DNA of 64,000 nucleotides from Magnetospirillum sp. ME-1 (lineage in GTDB: Bacteria; Pseudomonadota; Alphaproteobacteria; Rhodospirillales; Magnetospirillaceae), in assembly GCF_002105535.1 (NCBI RefSeq), contig NZ_CP015848.1:3018926-3082925 (forward strand), written 5' to 3'. Each line of letters begins with the position of its first letter. Position 1 is the first letter of the stretch. This document shows, in pieces, positions 10,915 through 48,205 of this stretch. The notes below the pieces were generated by a model. That model saw only the letters and a program-made list of their open reading frames with translations, was not told the DNA's origin and did no database searches. A program made the position numbers and the translations under genes.

Positions 10915-11748
10915 TCAGCCCCCCAGCTTCGCCATATCCTTTTCCACCTGGGCGCGGGCCGGGGAATCGGCGGGCAGGACCATCAGCAGGCGGTTCCAGC
11001 GGGCCTTGGCGCGGGCGGTTTCGCCCTTCATGGCCGCCGACAGGCCGGTGAAGTACAGGGCGTCGGGCTGGTCGGGGTTGAGCGCCAGCACCTGTTCCAG
11101 CAGCGTGATGGCCTCGGCCGGCAGGGTGTCGCCCTCGGCCTCCTCCAGCAGCATGATGGCGAGTTCAATGCGCGACTGGGTGTCGTCGGGCAGCAGGGTG
11201 ACGGCGTTGCGGTAGGCGTCCTTGGCCTCGTCGGCCAGCCCCAGGGCGCGGTACGAGCGGCCCAGCATGGCCCAGCCCTTGCCGTCGGAGGGGTCTTGGC
11301 GGAGGCGCTCGGCCAGACGGGCGACCATGGCCTGGATGGTGGCGGTCTTTTCCTGCATCTCGGCGATCTGGGCGGCGCGGCCGGCATAGGGGCGGTCGGA
11401 CAGCTCGGGCGCGCCCAGCGGCAGGTAGAGCACCAGGGCCAGCAGGGGCAGCAGCAGGGCGATGACGATGGGGGTTTTCTTGCCGGCCTTGACGGCGGCG
11501 GTCTTCTCGCCCTTTTCCCCCTCGGCGGCGGCCAGCATGCGGCGCTGGATTTCCGTGCGCGCCGCCTCGGCCTGGTCGGCGGTCATCAGGCCGCGCTCCA
11601 CGTCGCGGGCGATTTCGCCCAACTGGTCCTTGTAGACCATCAGGTCGTATTCCGAGCGGGCGGCGGCGGCGGCCGGCGCGGCCAGCAGCGGGCGCAGCAG
11701 CACCAGCAGGGTCAGGGCCACCATGGCGGCGAAGACGATCCAGATCAC
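10915..11748 (-). CDS. ccmI: Cytochrome c maturation protein CcmI (CycH)
   Basis: A 277-residue protein. An N-terminal membrane segment starts at the first residues (MIWIVFAAMVAL), followed by a basic cytoplasmic loop containing YKDQLGEIARDVERGLM (the conserved CcmI segment), a second membrane segment (about residues 93-112), and a periplasmic TPR region with GKGWAMLGRSYRALG and LYFTGLSAAMKGE. CcmI chaperones apocytochrome c and presents it to the CcmF/H ligation complex. It is the last gene of the minus-strand ccm operon, 6 nt after ccmH. Confidence 0.92.
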   Translation of the reverse strand: MIWIVFAAMVALTLLVLLRPLLAAPAAAAARSEYDLMVYKDQLGEIARDVERGLMTADQAEAARTEIQRRMLAAAEGEKGEKTAAVKAGKKTPIVIALLLPLLALVLYLPLGAPELSDRPYAGRAAQIAEMQEKTATIQAMVARLAERLRQDPSDGKGWAMLGRSYRALGLADEAKDAYRNAVTLLPDDTQSRIELAIMLLEEAEGDTLPAEAITLLEQVLALNPDQPDALYFTGLSAAMKGETARAKARWNRLLMVLPADSPARAQVEKDMAKLGG

Positions 11749-11754
11749 CGCACC

Positions 11755-12327
11755 CTACTCCTTCAGCAACGCGTCGAGTTTGCGCCGTTCCTCGGCCGAC
11801 AGCGGCGGCGGCGGGGGCGCCGCCTGTTCCGCCGGGCGGCGGCGGTAGAAGGCCAGCACCGCCCACAGGGCACCGACGAAAAGCGCCAGCGGCCCCAGCC
11901 ACAGGGCCAGGGTCCCGGCCCGGAACGGCGGCTTCAGCAGCACGTAATCGCCATAGCGGTCGACCACGAACTTCTTCACCTGCTCGTCGGAATCGCCCTT
12001 GGCGATGCGCTCGCGGACGATGACGCGCAGATCCTTGGCCAGATCGGCGTCGGAATCGTCGATGGACTGGTTCTGGCAGACCAGGCAGCGCAAATCCTTG
12101 CCCAGTTCGCGGGCACGGTGCTCCTGGGCCGGGTCCTTCAGCATCTCGTCGGGATTGACGGCGAGGGCCGGAGCGGAGAGGAGGAGGAGGGCGACGAGGG
12201 CGGCGGCAACCCACGTGTCATCCCGAGCGAAGCCGAGGGATCTCATTCTGCCCAGATGGTGCAGGATCGGAAGCGGCGTGCCAGGCGGAGATCCCTCACT
12301 GCGTTCGGGATGACAGGTCGGGGTCAT
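11755..12327 (-). CDS. ccmH: Cytochrome c maturation protein CcmH with repeat-derived N-terminus
   Basis: The mature part is ordinary CcmH (CcmL type): VNPDEMLKDP, then LRCLVCQNQS with the CxxC that handles apocytochrome thiols, a C-terminal membrane anchor (ALWLGPLALFVGALWAVL) and a Pro-rich tail. The 5' end is odd. The ATG overlaps the ccmG stop by ATGA as expected, but codons about 5-37 come from a 100-bp interspersed inverted repeat (CHPERSEGSP through GFARDDT) before the signal-peptide core WVAAALVALLLLSAPALA. The repeat is in frame, so the gene remains open. An internal ATG (about codon 28, also in the repeat) would give a shorter, more normal signal peptide. The gene is otherwise intact and presumably functional. 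Confidence 0.92.
   Translation of the reverse strand: MTPTCHPERSEGSPPGTPLPILHHLGRMRSLGFARDDTWVAAALVALLLLSAPALAVNPDEMLKDPAQEHRARELGKDLRCLVCQNQSIDDSDADLAKDLRVIVRERIAKGDSDEQVKKFVVDRYGDYVLLKPPFRAGTLALWLGPLALFVGALWAVLAFYRRRPAEQAAPPPPPLSAEERRKLDALLKE
12216..12315. repeat. Interspersed inverted repeat, family 1 copy A (inside ccmH)
   Basis: A 100-bp imperfect palindrome starts TGTCATCCCGAGCG and ends TCGGGATGACA, with inner arms GAGGGATCT/AGATCCCTC. It lies wholly within the ccmH reading frame just after the start codon and contributes 33 codons (no frameshift, no stop). Four related copies are in this window. Confidence 0.9.
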
Positions 12328-12866
12328 TGCTTCTCCAACTGACGGATGATGGGCAGCAGCGTCCTGGTCCAGATCTCCATGGAGATGGGGCCCACATGCT
12401 TGTAGCGGATGATGCCGGCCTTATCGACGATGAAGCTCTCGGGCGCGCCGGTGACGCCGAAATCCACGGCGGTGCGGCCCGGCGGCGGGTCGACGCCGAC
12501 CCGTTCGTAGGGGTCGCCGTTCTTCTTCAGCCAGGCGGCGCCCAGCACGGGATCGTCGCGCCAGTCCACGGCGTGGATGGGCACGTCGCCGCGGCGCTTG
12601 ATCTCCATCAGGACGGGGTGCTCCTGCACGCAGGAAATGCACCACGAGCCGTAGATGTTGACCAGCGACACCCGGCCCTTCAGCGATTCGGTGGTGAGGC
12701 CCGAATTCTCGCCGCGTCCGGGCAGCGGCGCCAGATTCATCTCCGGGACCGGGCGGTTGATCAGAACCGAGGGGATCTCGCGCGGGTTCAGCGTCAGGCC
12801 CTTCAGGAAGAACAGGGCCAGCACGGTGAACACCACCACGGGAAGGACATAGAGCAGGCGGCGCAT
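12324..12866 (-). CDS. ccmG: Thiol:disulfide oxidoreductase CcmG (DsbE)
   Basis: A 180-residue membrane-anchored thioredoxin-like protein. One N-terminal membrane segment (about residues 5-23) is followed by a periplasmic thioredoxin fold with active site GSWCISC (about residues 80-86) and the family segment TGAPESFIVDK with its cis-proline-region features. CcmG keeps the heme-binding CxxC of apocytochromes c, or CcmH, reduced. The active-site dipeptide I-S between the cysteines differs from the more common P-T/V-P. It sits between ccmF (13 nt upstream) and ccmH (ATGA overlap). Confidence 0.93.
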   Translation of the reverse strand: MRRLLYVLPVVVFTVLALFFLKGLTLNPREIPSVLINRPVPEMNLAPLPGRGENSGLTTESLKGRVSLVNIYGSWCISCVQEHPVLMEIKRRGDVPIHAVDWRDDPVLGAAWLKKNGDPYERVGVDPPPGRTAVDFGVTGAPESFIVDKAGIIRYKHVGPISMEIWTRTLLPIIRQLEKQ

Positions 12867-12879
12867 GGCTCGTCTCTCC

Positions 12880-14859
12880 TCAGGCCTTGGCGGCGGCGTT
12901 GGCGGCCCGCGCCGGCGCGCCGACCCGGTGGCGGCGGTCGGCCAGCGAGATCAGCCCGCCGACGATCAGCAACAGGGCGCCGGCCCACAGCCAGGGAATA
13001 CAGGGGTTGAAGTACAGCCGCGTCACCCAGCCGCCCTTGTTGGGATCGGGGTCGCCGATCACCACGTAAAGGTCGCCGGTTATCCCTGACCGGATGGCCG
13101 CCGTGGTGGTGGGGCGCGGCGGCTGCTTGTACAGGCGCTTTTCCGGGCTCATCACGTCGATGACCGTGCCGCCCCTGGAAATCTCGAAGGTGGCCCGCGT
13201 GGCGGTGTAGTTGGGGCCGGGGACGTCGTCCACCGACTTCAGGGTCACGCCGAAACCGCCCACCGTGACGGTCTCGCCGATCTTCTGGGTCTGGATGTGC
13301 TCGGTGGTCCAGGCCGACGAGGCGGTGAGACCGACGATGAACACCGCCAGCCCGAAATGGGCCAGCACCATGCCCCAGGCGGAATTGGGCAGTTTGGCGG
13401 CGCGCGACAGCGCCTGACCCGGGCGGGTGAACAGGCCGATGCGCTCGGCCAGGTCCCACAGGGTGCCCAGGCCCAGCCAGACGGCGAGCGCGAAGCCGGC
13501 GGCGGTCCACCACGGGCCGGACGAGCCGCCCTGGAGGAACCACACGGCCATGGCCGAACCCAGCGCCAGGGCGCCGATGAACTTCAGGCGGGCCAGCACG
13601 CCGGCCAGATCGCCGCGCTTCCACGACATCATGGGAGCGGCGGCCATCACCAGCACCATGGGGGCCATCAGGGGCAGGAACACCGCGTTGAAGAAGGGCG
13701 GACCCACCGACACCTTGCCGAGGTTGAGAGCGTCGGCGATCAGCGGGTAAAGGGTGCCCAGCAGCACGGTGGCCGCACCGGTGGCCATCAGCACGTTGTT
13801 GAGCAGCAACGCGCCTTCGCGCGAGATGGGCGAGAACAGGCCGCCCATCTTCATGGACGGCGCCCGGGCGGCGTAAAGGGCCAGCGAACCGCCCACCGCG
13901 CCGCACAGCAGCACTAAGATGAACACGCCCCTGGCCGGGTCGGTGGCGAAGGCGTGCACGCTGGTGAGCACGCCCGAACGCACCAGGAAGGTGCCCAACA
14001 GCGACAGGCCGAAGGCGACGATGGCCAAAAGGATGGTCCAGCTCTTCAGCGCGTCGCGCTTTTCCACCACGATGGCGGAGTGCAGCAGGGCGGTGCCGGC
14101 CAGCCAGGGCATGAACGAGGCGTTCTCCACCGGGTCCCAGTACCACCAGCCGCCCCAGCCCAGCGTGTAATAGGCCCACCACGAGCCCAGCACGATGCCG
14201 GCGGTGAGGAACACCCAGGCGGCCAGCGTCCAGGGCCGCACCCAGCGGGCCCAGGCGGCGTCCACCCGGCCTTCCAGCAGGGCGGCGATGGCGAACGAGA
14301 AGGCCATGGAGAAGCCCACATAGCCCAGGTACAGGAAGGGCGGATGGAAGGCCAGGCCCGGGTCCTGCAGCATGGGATTGAGGCCCTGGCCGTTGATGGG
14401 GGGCGGCTCCAGGCGGGCGAAGGGATTGGAGGTGAGCAGGATGAAGGCCAGAAAGCCCACGGCGATCATGGCCTGCACGGCCAGGGCGCGGGACTTCAGG
14501 CCCGGCGGCAGGTTGCGGCCGAACAGGGTCACGGCGAAGCCGAACAGGGCCAGGATGGTGATCCACAAGAGCAGCGAGCCCTCGTGGTTGCCCCACACGC
14601 CCGCCACCTTGTAGAGCATGGGCTTGTCGGTATGGCTGTTCTGGGCGACGTTCATCAGCGAGAAATCGCTGGTGACATAGGCGTTGGTCAGCGCCCCGAA
14701 GGCGATGGCGATGAACAGGAACTGCAGCGTGGCGGCCGAGCCGGCCACGTTCATCCAGGCGGTGTTGCCGCGCCTGGCGCCCATCAGCGGGACAATCGCC
14801 TGCACCAATGCGACGCACAAAGCCAGCACCAGGGCGAAATGGCCGATTTCGGCGATCAT
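12880..14859 (-). CDS. ccmF: Heme lyase subunit CcmF
   Basis: A 659-residue polytopic protein with about 14-15 membrane segments. The tryptophan-rich heme-handling signature of the heme-handling protein family is present (GWGGWWYWDPVENASFMPW, about residues 235-253), plus WGNHEGSLLLW near residue 90 and LNPMLQDPGLAFHPP near residue 137. The periplasmic loop near the C-terminus carries GEVTVGGFGVTL-like strands. CcmF with CcmH/CcmI attaches heme to apocytochrome c. It lies in the minus-strand ccm operon. The gap to ccmE (133 nt) is larger than elsewhere because a repeat element occupies it. Confidence 0.95.
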   Translation of the reverse strand: MIAEIGHFALVLALCVALVQAIVPLMGARRGNTAWMNVAGSAATLQFLFIAIAFGALTNAYVTSDFSLMNVAQNSHTDKPMLYKVAGVWGNHEGSLLLWITILALFGFAVTLFGRNLPPGLKSRALAVQAMIAVGFLAFILLTSNPFARLEPPPINGQGLNPMLQDPGLAFHPPFLYLGYVGFSMAFSFAIAALLEGRVDAAWARWVRPWTLAAWVFLTAGIVLGSWWAYYTLGWGGWWYWDPVENASFMPWLAGTALLHSAIVVEKRDALKSWTILLAIVAFGLSLLGTFLVRSGVLTSVHAFATDPARGVFILVLLCGAVGGSLALYAARAPSMKMGGLFSPISREGALLLNNVLMATGAATVLLGTLYPLIADALNLGKVSVGPPFFNAVFLPLMAPMVLVMAAAPMMSWKRGDLAGVLARLKFIGALALGSAMAVWFLQGGSSGPWWTAAGFALAVWLGLGTLWDLAERIGLFTRPGQALSRAAKLPNSAWGMVLAHFGLAVFIVGLTASSAWTTEHIQTQKIGETVTVGGFGVTLKSVDDVPGPNYTATRATFEISRGGTVIDVMSPEKRLYKQPPRPTTTAAIRSGITGDLYVVIGDPDPNKGGWVTRLYFNPCIPWLWAGALLLIVGGLISLADRRHRVGAPARAANAAAKA

Positions 14860-14872
14860 GAAACCTCTCCAG

Positions 14873-14976
14873 CGTCATTCCCGCGCAGGCGGGAATCCAT
14901 GCGTCCGCAGACAGTATCTATTACGGTTCCCATTCGTCTCGCCCCACCATGGACCCCCGCCTTCGCGGGGGTGACG
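14873..14976. repeat. Interspersed inverted repeat, family 2 (between ccmE and ccmF)
   Basis: A 104-bp element with ends CGTCATTCCCGCGCAGGCGGGAATCCAT and ATGGACCCCCGCCTTCGCGGGGGTGACG. Each end is itself a small hairpin, and the two outer ends are roughly inverted. It fills nearly all the ccmE-ccmF gap inside the operon. The sequence differs from family 1 apart from the outer GTCAT/TGAC bases. Confidence 0.85.
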
Positions 14977-14992
14977 AAAAAGAAAGCGGCCG

Positions 14993-16459: not shown

Positions 16460-16534
16460 TGTCATCCCGAGCGAAGCCGGGGGATCTTTCACGCGACGGC
16501 GGCTGAAAGATGCTTCGCATTCGCTCAGCATGAC
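16460..16534. repeat. Interspersed inverted repeat, family 1 copy B
   Basis: A 75-bp element from TGTCATCCCGAGCGAAGCC to GCTCAGCATGAC, with inner arms GATCTTTC/GAAAGATG. It lies in the space between the ccmC start and the 3' end of the upstream minus-strand oxidoreductase gene. It is the shortest and most diverged of the five copies. Confidence 0.85.
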
Positions 16535-16545
16535 GATCGCGGCTC

Positions 16546-22240: not shown

Positions 22241-22331
22241 TGTCATCCCGAGCGGATGCGAGGGATCTCCGTTTGCTCGGACGGGCCGGAGCAGGAGGAG
22301 ATCCCTCGTCGCCATGCTCCTCGGGATGACA
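22241..22331. repeat. Interspersed inverted repeat, family 1 copy C
   Basis: A 91-bp element from TGTCATCCCGAGCGGATGCGAGGGATCTCC to GGAGATCCCTCGTCGCCATGCTCCTCGGGATGACA. It lies 24 bp upstream of the response-regulator start and about 65 bp before the cobalamin riboswitch. The inner arms GAGGGATCTCC/GGAGATCCCTC are perfect. Confidence 0.9.
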
Positions 22332-41768: not shown

Positions 41769-42963
41769 GATAGACCAGCAGCGAGACCAACCCCATCACC
41801 GCCATCATGGCGGCCAGCGGCCGGGCCGAGCCGTCGTAGAGCGCGCCCACCAGCCAGCCGGCCGAGGCGCCGCCGCCCATCTGGATGAAGCCCATGGCCG
41901 ACGAGGCCGCACCCGCCATGCTCGGAAAAGGGGCGATGGCCCCGGCGGTGGCGTTGGGCAGCACCAGGGCGCAGGAGGCGAAGAAGGCCATCACCGAGCC
42001 CATGATCAGGGCGATGCCCTCCAGCCCGCCCGGCCTGGCCACACCCGACCACACCAGCCCGGCCAGGACAAAGCCCGCCAGGGTGCAGCCGATGGTGCCG
42101 GCGAACACCATGCGCTCGATGCCGAAGCGATGGGTCAGCCTGGCGCCGGCGAAGCCGCCCACCAGATAGCCCCCCGAGGCGAAGGCGAAGGCCAGGCCGA
42201 ACTGGCTGGGCTGCATGCCCATGACGTCGATCAGCACGAAGCTCGACGCCGAGATGAAGCTGAACAGCCCGCCGAACGCCGCCGTCATGGTCAGCACATA
42301 GCCGAGGAACAGGCGGTGGGTCAGCAACTGGCGGTAATTCTCGGCCATGCGACCCAAATCCAGGGCCTGCGGGTCCTTGTGGGCGTTGGTTTCGGCCAGC
42401 ATCCGCCAGACCATCACCAGCAGGCCCACGCCGAATAGGGCCAGCAGCACGAAATTGGAGCGCCAGCCGAACGCCGTGTGGAACCAGCCGCCGATGGTGG
42501 GCGCCACCAAAGGCGCAAGGGCCATGGCGCTGGCCATGTAGCTCATCACCTTGGCCGCCTGCTCGCGGGCGAACAGGTCGCGCACCACGGCGCGGCCCAG
42601 AACGGGGCCGCAGCAGGCGCCCACCGCCTGGAAGAACCGTCCGACGATCAGCGCCTCGATGCTGGGGGCGAAGACGCAGTAAATGCTGGCCGTCACATAG
42701 ATGACGATGCCGCTGAGAATCAGCGGACGCCGGCCGAAACGGTCGGACAGCGGCCCGTAGACCAGCTGCATCACCGCGAAGCCGCCGACGAAGGCCGACA
42801 GCGTCATCTGCACCATGGGGGTGGTGGTGGCGAGGTCGCGGGCCATGTCGGGCAGCGAGGCGAGGTAGAGATCGGTGCAGACCGGCCCGAAGGCCACCAG
42901 CAGGGTCAACAGCACCGCGATCCGTCGCGATGGGGTCACATTACTCAACAGCGCCCCCTGCAA
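41737..42963 (-). CDS. Bcr/CflA-type MFS drug-resistance transporter
   Basis: A transporter of about 400 residues with 12 membrane segments. The N-terminal family pattern is clear: FGPVCTDLYLASLPDMARDL, then QLVYGPLSDRFGRRPLILSG (MFS motif A) and AVGACCGPVLGRAVVRDLF (motif C-like), as in Bcr/CflA exporters of bicyclomycin or chloramphenicol-type compounds. The start is uncertain: TTG at 42963 begins at the edge of a family 1 repeat, while GTG at 42939 gives the core protein. The real substrate is unknown. It overlaps the convergent kinase gene by 32 bp. Confidence 0.88.
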   Translation of the reverse strand: MQGALLSNVTPSRRIAVLLTLLVAFGPVCTDLYLASLPDMARDLATTTPMVQMTLSAFVGGFAVMQLVYGPLSDRFGRRPLILSGIVIYVTASIYCVFAPSIEALIVGRFFQAVGACCGPVLGRAVVRDLFAREQAAKVMSYMASAMALAPLVAPTIGGWFHTAFGWRSNFVLLALFGVGLLVMVWRMLAETNAHKDPQALDLGRMAENYRQLLTHRLFLGYVLTMTAAFGGLFSFISASSFVLIDVMGMQPSQFGLAFAFASGGYLVGGFAGARLTHRFGIERMVFAGTIGCTLAGFVLAGLVWSGVARPGGLEGIALIMGSVMAFFASCALVLPNATAGAIAPFPSMAGAASSAMGFIQMGGGASAGWLVGALYDGSARPLAAMMAVMGLVSLLVYLKVARPAARR

Positions 42964-42968
42964 AACGC

Positions 42969-43072
42969 GTCATCCCGACGACCATCGGGAGGAGGGATCC
43001 CGTCCTGCTCCGGCCTTTGCGAAATGGAACCGGCATTCCAGGCGGAGATTCCTCGCATGCGCTCGGAATGAC
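42969..43072. repeat. Interspersed inverted repeat, family 1 copy D
   Basis: A 104-bp element from GTCATCCCGACGACCATCGGGAGGAGGGATCC to GGAGATTCCTCGCATGCGCTCGGAATGAC. It lies directly upstream of the Bcr-type gene, 17 bp after the stop of the upstream YgjP-like gene, both on the minus strand. Confidence 0.85.
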
Positions 43073-48084: not shown

Positions 48085-48189
48085 TGTCATCCCGAGCATG
48101 GCGAGGGATCTCCGCTTGGCGCGGCGGCGCCAATATCGAAAAGCCGTGCCAGGATGAGATCCCTCCTCCCGTTGGTCGTCGGGATGACA
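48085..48189. repeat. Interspersed inverted repeat, family 1 copy E
   Basis: A 105-bp element from TGTCATCCCGAGCATGGCGAGGGATCTCC to GAGATCCCTCCTCCCGTTGGTCGTCGGGATGACA, sitting between cobH and cobL inside what would otherwise be a tight cob operon. It ends 16 bp before the cobL ATG. Confidence 0.9.
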
Positions 48190-48205
48190 CGCTTTGGGGG
48201 CTGTC

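Follow-up and report, generated by a model that had tools for sequence, protein, structure and literature searches.

A palindromic repeat dimer at the ccmG/ccmH junction of Magnetospirillum sp. ME-1, probably read in frame as part of the CcmH signal peptide

The ccmH gene and the repeat at its start

The window analysed here is a stretch of 64,000 nt from Magnetospirillum sp. ME-1 (NZ_CP015848.1, positions 3,018,926 to 3,082,925), a genome of the genus Paramagnetospirillum. It carries a ccm operon in the order ccmC-E-F-G-H-I, in which two genes are presumably ccmC and ccmE, judging by their position. A 100-bp palindromic repeat lies at the start of ccmH. We suggest that this element, a dimer of repetitive extragenic palindromic (REP) units at the ccmG/ccmH junction, is probably read through in frame as the n-region of the CcmH signal peptide. 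Below, G000 denotes the source genome, other G numbers comparison genomes and L numbers individual loci; the genus comparison covered 17 Paramagnetospirillum genomes including G000. The features concerned, most of them open reading frames (ORFs) or parts of them, are the following.

11755..12327, minus strand: ccmH, CcmH family, with 190 aa when the upstream start is used (ORF and Pfam)
12325..12327, minus strand: upstream start codon of ccmH, overlapping the ccmG stop as ATGA, with GGAG 5 nt upstream
12216..12315, minus strand: 100-bp REP dimer of family 1, in which a loop separates two hairpin units whose tags point outward; open in the ccmH frame
12290..12315, minus strand: REP unit A, 5' in the mRNA, with TGTC tag, ATCCC/GGGAT stem, GA facing GA, AC/GT pairs and GCA loop; would code CHPERSEGS
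12216..12242, plus strand: REP unit B, inverted, with TGTC tag, ATCCC/GGGAT stem and one extra base; its complement codes the core-adjacent n-region RSLGFARDD
12244..12246, minus strand: inner candidate start, an in-frame ATG bordering the right arm and 12 codons ahead of the core; not preceded by GGAG in G000
12178..12210, minus strand: hydrophobic core of the signal peptide (VAAALVALLLL), from the sequence
12324..12866, minus strand: ccmG (Redoxin), upstream gene overlapping ccmH (ORF and Pfam)
10915..11748, minus strand: ccmI (TPR_CcmH_CycH), downstream gene (ORF and Pfam)
12880..14859, minus strand: ccmF (Pfam CcmF_C; ORF and Pfam)

The product belongs to the CcmH family by its domain (PF03918, E 1.8e-53, residues 45-188 in a Pfam search) and by its CxxC motif, present as LRCLVCQ. 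The initial annotation had described a ccmH start overlapping the ccmG stop as ATGA, followed by a multi-copy 100-bp repeat lying in frame before the core, and all of this holds. The range it gave consists of the repeat itself and four codons, the 12 nt (12316-12327, MTPT) that separate the repeat from the ccmH start. The ccmH frame is open across the repeat (MTPTCHPERSEGSPPGTPLPILHHLGRMRSLGFARDDTWVAAALVALLLLSAPALA) and runs into the hydrophobic core and a candidate ALA-V cleavage site, both recognized from the sequence only. The mature CcmH domain is intact despite the repeat. The proposed folding of the mRNA into a hairpin is likewise borne out, with a fold z-score of -3.79 and none of 200 shuffles equally stable; an Rfam search of 11500-13000 gave no match up to E 1.

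The upstream start lies 39 codons before the core in G000 and the inner ATG 12 codons before it. The nearest in-frame start precedes the ccmH core by a median of 3 codons at 43 loci of a class-wide sample (match in 82 of 104 genomes; 70 loci from 68 genomes fetched, the 14 weakest genomes being excluded; 67 loci readable). The element occurs at the same place in three of the 17 genus genomes (G000, G013 and G009) and measures 100 nt in each, which rules out an assembly artefact. It is absent from the ccmH start of G016, G010, G005, G012, G008, G007 and G002; ordinary short n-regions stand there in relatives, with signal peptides of the MKRL/MRRL type directly after ATGA in G016, G010 and G005. 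Set against G010 (ATGAGGCGG), which has no repeat, G009 shows an insertion of 108 nt (100 of repeat plus 8), and the frame is kept. The n-regions of G011 and G003 are long as well, but no palindrome there exceeds the shuffles, and these two are not counted as proven cases.

A dispersed family of GTC-tagged palindromes

In own-genome searches 40 candidates were scored each time, and a palindrome matches on both strands, so that about two matches correspond to one copy. The ccmH repeat gave at least 73 BLAST matches in its own genome, from 40 scored of 142 candidates. At least 64 repeat places were located in G000, 61 of them in 60 fetched stretches and three in the window, and the element is thus dispersed and multi-copy. 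A 26-nt unit pattern with up to three mismatches had 37 matches in G000 (none for the reversed pattern), 25 in G009, 13 in G013, seven each in G010 and G003, three each in G014 and G005, two in G012, one in G016 and none in the remaining eight genomes of the genus. G000 and G016 are sisters at this locus, with a divergence of 124/1015 at 4-fold sites, yet they differ in unit matches by 37 to 1, which is fast growth or a purge of the family.

Each unit consists of a GTC tag, a five-pair stem, GA facing GA, two further pairs and a three-base loop. This spacing fits 61 sites in the 60 stretches and the window; 33 of them have at least four of the five stem pairs (0 in shuffled sequence), the two inner pairs are present as well in 31 of these, of which 25 have a GNA loop. 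The stems are ATCCT/AGGAT (15), ATCCC/GGGAT (13), ATTCC/GGAAT (4) and one other, and such two-sided changes are compensatory. The sequence GCGNAGC is an unusually stable DNA mini-hairpin. Units are joined head to head as dimers, 29 of which (76-108 nt) are listed by a strict pattern that missed 34 of the 61 source stretches. By a rough criterion of G+C content at third codon positions (GC3), applied without gene annotation, only 4 of the 61 places lie in a coding-like open frame.

Three copies in G000 (L163, L170 and L188) are apparently in frame near the N-terminus of an ORF, with 390-408 codons after the repeat by GC3, and are further candidates for REP-coded N-termini; a fourth candidate, L165, has only 45 codons after the repeat. 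Further family 1 dimers occur in the window at 16460-16535 and 22241-22331. The first stands just upstream of ccmC, where G016 carries another palindrome and G013 no more than a remnant. An inverted 96-nt pair (42961-43056 and 48101-48196, 77% complementary) is accompanied by a match to a unit of the family at about 48085-48110.

Family 1 is close to the CGTC REPs treated by Di Nocera et al. (2013; PMC3733652) in tag, stem, dimer form and position. It differs in its tag, mostly TGTC (35 of 37 units in G000, with one CGTC and one GGTC; the ccmH copy of G009 has CGTC), in the CTC that follows the stem instead of a CCA tail (by eye, the listed copies mostly have GGGATCTC or GGATCTC), and in its inner part of GA facing GA, two pairs and a GNA loop. 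The GTC tags also set the G000 units apart from GTAG REPs. Magnetospirillum is absent from the main text of that paper. The REP-associated tyrosine transposase (Y1_Tnp, PF01797) was not found in G000 and is present in 4 of the 17 genus genomes (G010, G007, G014 and G013).

Intragenic REPs are a known kind: some CGTC REPs lie within ORFs, and many of those are N-terminal, according to the same paper. It also mentions the Rickettsia palindromic elements, palindromic repeats in frame in protein genes, of which N-termini decorated with RPE-1 are reported as expressed in vivo in Rickettsia conorii (PMC3733652). These elements likewise are palindromes inserted in frame, but as described there they are spread across many unrelated proteins, whereas here one gene start has been struck repeatedly by several repeat families in different genera. 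The long signal sequences of autotransporters (PMC2805444) are not known to be repeat-derived, in contrast to the CcmH extension, which is a mobile palindrome with a drifting loop. No report of CcmH signal peptides repeatedly capturing such elements was found in the open-access literature searched, nor was anything found there for the letters of the repeat, for HPERSEG or for Magnetospirillum together with REP.

Start codons in Paramagnetospirillum and Reyranella

The right arm of the G000 repeat is predicted to be translated whichever of the two starts serves, and the proposal of a repeat-coded n-region stands in this form. We favour the upstream ATG as the start probably used in G000, as it is preceded by GGAG at 5 nt in all three carriers, whereas the inner ATG has no GGAG before it in G000 and G013. 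The competing possibility, which we hold only tentatively, is that translation begins at the inner ATG (12244-12246); the left unit and the loop would then stay untranslated in the interval from ccmG to ccmH, and a 12-codon n-region would come from the right arm (MRSLGFARDD) alone. Several observations tell against the upstream start and in favour of this inner one. The inner ATG of G009 has its own GGAG 4 nt upstream. Predicted folding does not separate the starts, their mean unpaired values being 0.43, 0.35 and 0.39 for the upstream start versus 0.34, 0.36 and 0.30 for the inner one in G000, G013 and G009. With four basic and four acidic residues, and with DD close to the core, the 39-residue n-region is unusual for a Sec signal in G000. 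The inner ATG could also serve alone, as it must in Reyranella locus L197, where upstream in-frame stops force the use of an ATG at the right arm, and many N-terminal REPs may be extragenic, as PMC3733652 has it. On the other hand, an ATG at the corresponding place occurs on one or other arm in 16 of the 29 listed dimers and need not be selected, and the loop has no indel across the three species, though dimers elsewhere vary in length. The GGAG of G009 and the folding values are the reasons why we rate the upstream start no higher than probable and keep the inner start as a lesser possibility.

Loci with strong palindromes but no in-frame start between repeat and core are L075 (from the same genome as L196), L203 and L107. 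At L075, in Reyranella, the repeat reads MTLCRPERSEGPSASTSRCWAPRSFAALRTT and is followed by the core; as there is no ATG, GTG or TTG between the two, and as the GTG at the second core codon would leave no n-region, this repeat is almost certainly translated. L203 has no start before the mature part, and L107 has an ATG in the core and is uncertain. The protein of L197 is 87% identical to that of L075; its repeat has the same 29-nt arms with another loop containing in-frame stops, and the ATG before the right arm gives MRSFAALRTT and then the core. A long n-region and an internal start are therefore both predicted to occur in Reyranella, with the right arm as n-region in both.

Age, recurrence and probable tolerance of the insert

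The G000 and G013 elements are 91% identical as a whole and 80% identical in the loop, above all 378 pairs among the 28 other listed G000 copies, and because of this we regard them as one insertion event. Their loops differ at 8 of 37 sites (0.22), close to the 183 of 968 (0.19) at 4-fold sites of six ccm genes. As this divergence is about neutral, the insertion would be old, about the age of the split between the two genomes; a recent transfer of the ccmH 5' end into G000 is disfavoured on the same ground. It also speaks against such a transfer that G000 is nearer to G016 than to G013 in most segments of the flanks; directly after the repeat, however, it matches G016 at 104 of 117 positions and G013 at 105 of 117.

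A tree of six ccm proteins from 14 of the 17 genomes places G016 as sister to G000 (support 1.0), G010 next (0.99), G013 with a support of 0.56, and G009 and G005 as sisters (0.99). On this tree the insert was probably lost from G016 and G010, and that of G009 may belong to the same event or to a separate one. A single old insertion common to all three carriers is called into question on two counts. The carriers are not monophyletic, so that losses or separate gains are needed, and the G009 loop differs from those of G000 and G013 at 13 and 17 of 37 sites, above the neutral level, so that this insert may be independent. Over its full length, the G009 element has 85% identity with that of G000 and 81% with that of G013; its loop values of 0.72 and 0.65 are reached by 12 and 88 of the 378 pairs. 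Separate insertions in G000/G013 and in G009, at a hot spot rather than in one old event, would also fit the wealth of units in the carriers (37, 25 and 13) compared with their non-carrier neighbours (1, 7 and 3), and the presence of other repeats at the same gene start in other lineages. We nevertheless think this doubtful, given that the identity of the G000 and G013 elements points to one event, that all three carriers agree in the position and length of the insert, and that other operon junctions are struck nearly as often.

Recurrence at the ccmH start across genera is broader than the initial annotation stated. Multi-copy palindromes stand there in P. kuznetsovii (at least 83 matches in its own genome), at Reyranella L075 (at least 80), in the alpha proteobacterium AAP38 (at least 89) and in Agrobacterium rosae (at least 78). 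The Reyranella repeat has the family 1 design (GAGCGCAGCGA core), and the three others look different. Cross-checks gave no match for the Reyranella repeat in G061 and G062, the AAP38 repeat in G060, the A. rosae repeat in G061 and the P. kuznetsovii repeat in G000; the last had four matches in G009 and eight in G003. The A. rosae repeat stands directly next to an ATG that is probably native (MREVF; cf. locus L117 of A. tumefaciens) and may be extragenic, as may the P. kuznetsovii repeat, which is followed by an ATG (MRRVL). The inserts at L050, L096, L097, L104, L107, L111, L115 and L203 and the remaining ones of the Reyranella group are candidates and are not counted as proven. The Reyranella locus L207 has a very long inverted repeat, with 101-nt arms, directly before the ccmH core.

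Junctions were counted in a mixed set of 94 loci (92 with L124 and L126 left out as genome duplicates), which is mildly biased in that 80 named loci are the best matches of a scan with two patterns from the repeat region. Inverted repeats scoring at least 13, a cut-off below which the inserts of G009 and G013 fall and go uncounted, lie before ccmH at 10 of 92 loci (5 of 57 after ccmG, 5 of 35 after ccmF), between ccmE and ccmF at 7 of 78, between ccmF and ccmG at 1 of 55, and between ccmH and ccmI at 2 of 56 (three repeats). Twelve more lie within ccmE, F, H or I, and the total is 76 in the 94 loci versus 24 in one shuffle of each. The Reyranella group (41 genomes, 33 with a match, 30 loci) has repeats between ccmG and ccmH at 11 of 30 loci, between ccmF and ccmG at 8 of 30, between ccmH and ccmI at 3 of 29, inside ccmI at eight loci and inside ccmH at three; its shuffles have eight repeats in all. 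The idea of ccmH as a unique hot spot is weakened by these counts, as its junction is the most often struck in the mixed set but the one between ccmE and ccmF, and in Reyranella the one between ccmF and ccmG, come close. The picture of broad recurrence is also tempered by the class-wide sample, in which a strong repeat precedes ccmH at 2 of 67 loci, one of them G000; under a stricter reading rule, 43 of 69 loci of this sample are readable and have no such repeat.

The palindromes ahead of ccmC and in the ccmE/ccmF gap vary by eye among seven species, being of family 1, of GCGGGACGCCCGCG type, of CGTCACCCCCGCG type or absent; upstream of ccmC, G013 has kept only GGGATGACA. As the palindromes at operon junctions differ between species, junction turnover is common here, and what makes the ccmG/ccmH junction special is that there is no room between the genes. 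The ccmE/ccmF gap of the window (14860-14992) holds a different palindromic repeat (CGTCACCCCCGCGAAGG..GCGGGAATGACG), with a similar one in G012 and other palindromes in G009, G013 and G010.

We read the locus as an instance of REP turnover where the junction leaves no spare room, and where the insert is tolerated in a dispensable n-region. A TGTC-tagged, non-autonomous REP dimer, near the CGTC REP super-family, would have entered the junction of ccmG and ccmH in an ancestor shared by several species of Paramagnetospirillum. Such repeats reportedly favour the space just behind a stop codon; given the ATGA overlap of ccmG and ccmH, this space would here be the beginning of the following gene. 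As the net insertion is a multiple of three, translation could run from the coupled ATG to the core, and the CcmH precursor would carry an n-region of about 39 residues where a few are usual. After export and cleavage, mature CcmH would be unchanged, since the n-region would be removed along with the signal peptide. This proposal draws on the copy number of the family, the orthology of the G013 insert, the absence of the element in near relatives, the open frame, the intact mature domain, the recurrence in other genera and a Reyranella for which read-through is the one plausible route to CcmH.

A role for the hairpin is possible; that it tunes CcmH relative to CcmG at the coupled junction seems unlikely to us. 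The arms are indeed far more conserved than the loop: of their 63 sites, one is changed between G000 and G013, and four and five separate these two genomes from G009, as against fractions of 0.22-0.46 in the loops and 0.18-0.19 at 4-fold sites. In the same way, the arms of L196 and L197 are identical over 29 nt on each side while their loops can hardly be aligned, and the predicted fold is stable, as given above. However, such conservation would be explicable by hairpin selection or by gene conversion among the many copies alike, the pattern would equally arise if one consensus had inserted separately, two relatives (G016 and G010) seem to have lost the element, and most members of the genus are without it. 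Exaptation, a gained use of the repeat as coding sequence, finds no support beyond tolerance: the G000/G013 loop diverges about neutrally, six of its eight changed codons alter the amino acid, and the apparent losses point the same way. With the mature domain intact, the loop drifting, and basic and acidic residues balanced at four each in the n-region, the element appears to be tolerated, probably with no benefit. It is improbable that REPs are portable start-plus-n-region cassettes. On that view an arm codes a hydrophilic, Arg-bearing n-region and in many cases supplies an ATG as well; signal peptides, that of CcmH included, would be rebuilt time and again at overlapping junctions from different mobile palindromes, and the hairpin arms would then be kept to set ccmG/ccmH translational coupling.

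In practice, the longest open frame is no guide to where CcmH starts in genomes rich in REPs. Reyranella L196/L197 and Paramagnetospirillum G000/G016 are natural pairs for the study of start use, of the export of proteins with a long n-region, and of the junction hairpin and protein ratios. The n-region of a cleaved signal peptide is a place where a protein can absorb a mobile palindrome, as its residues vanish after export.
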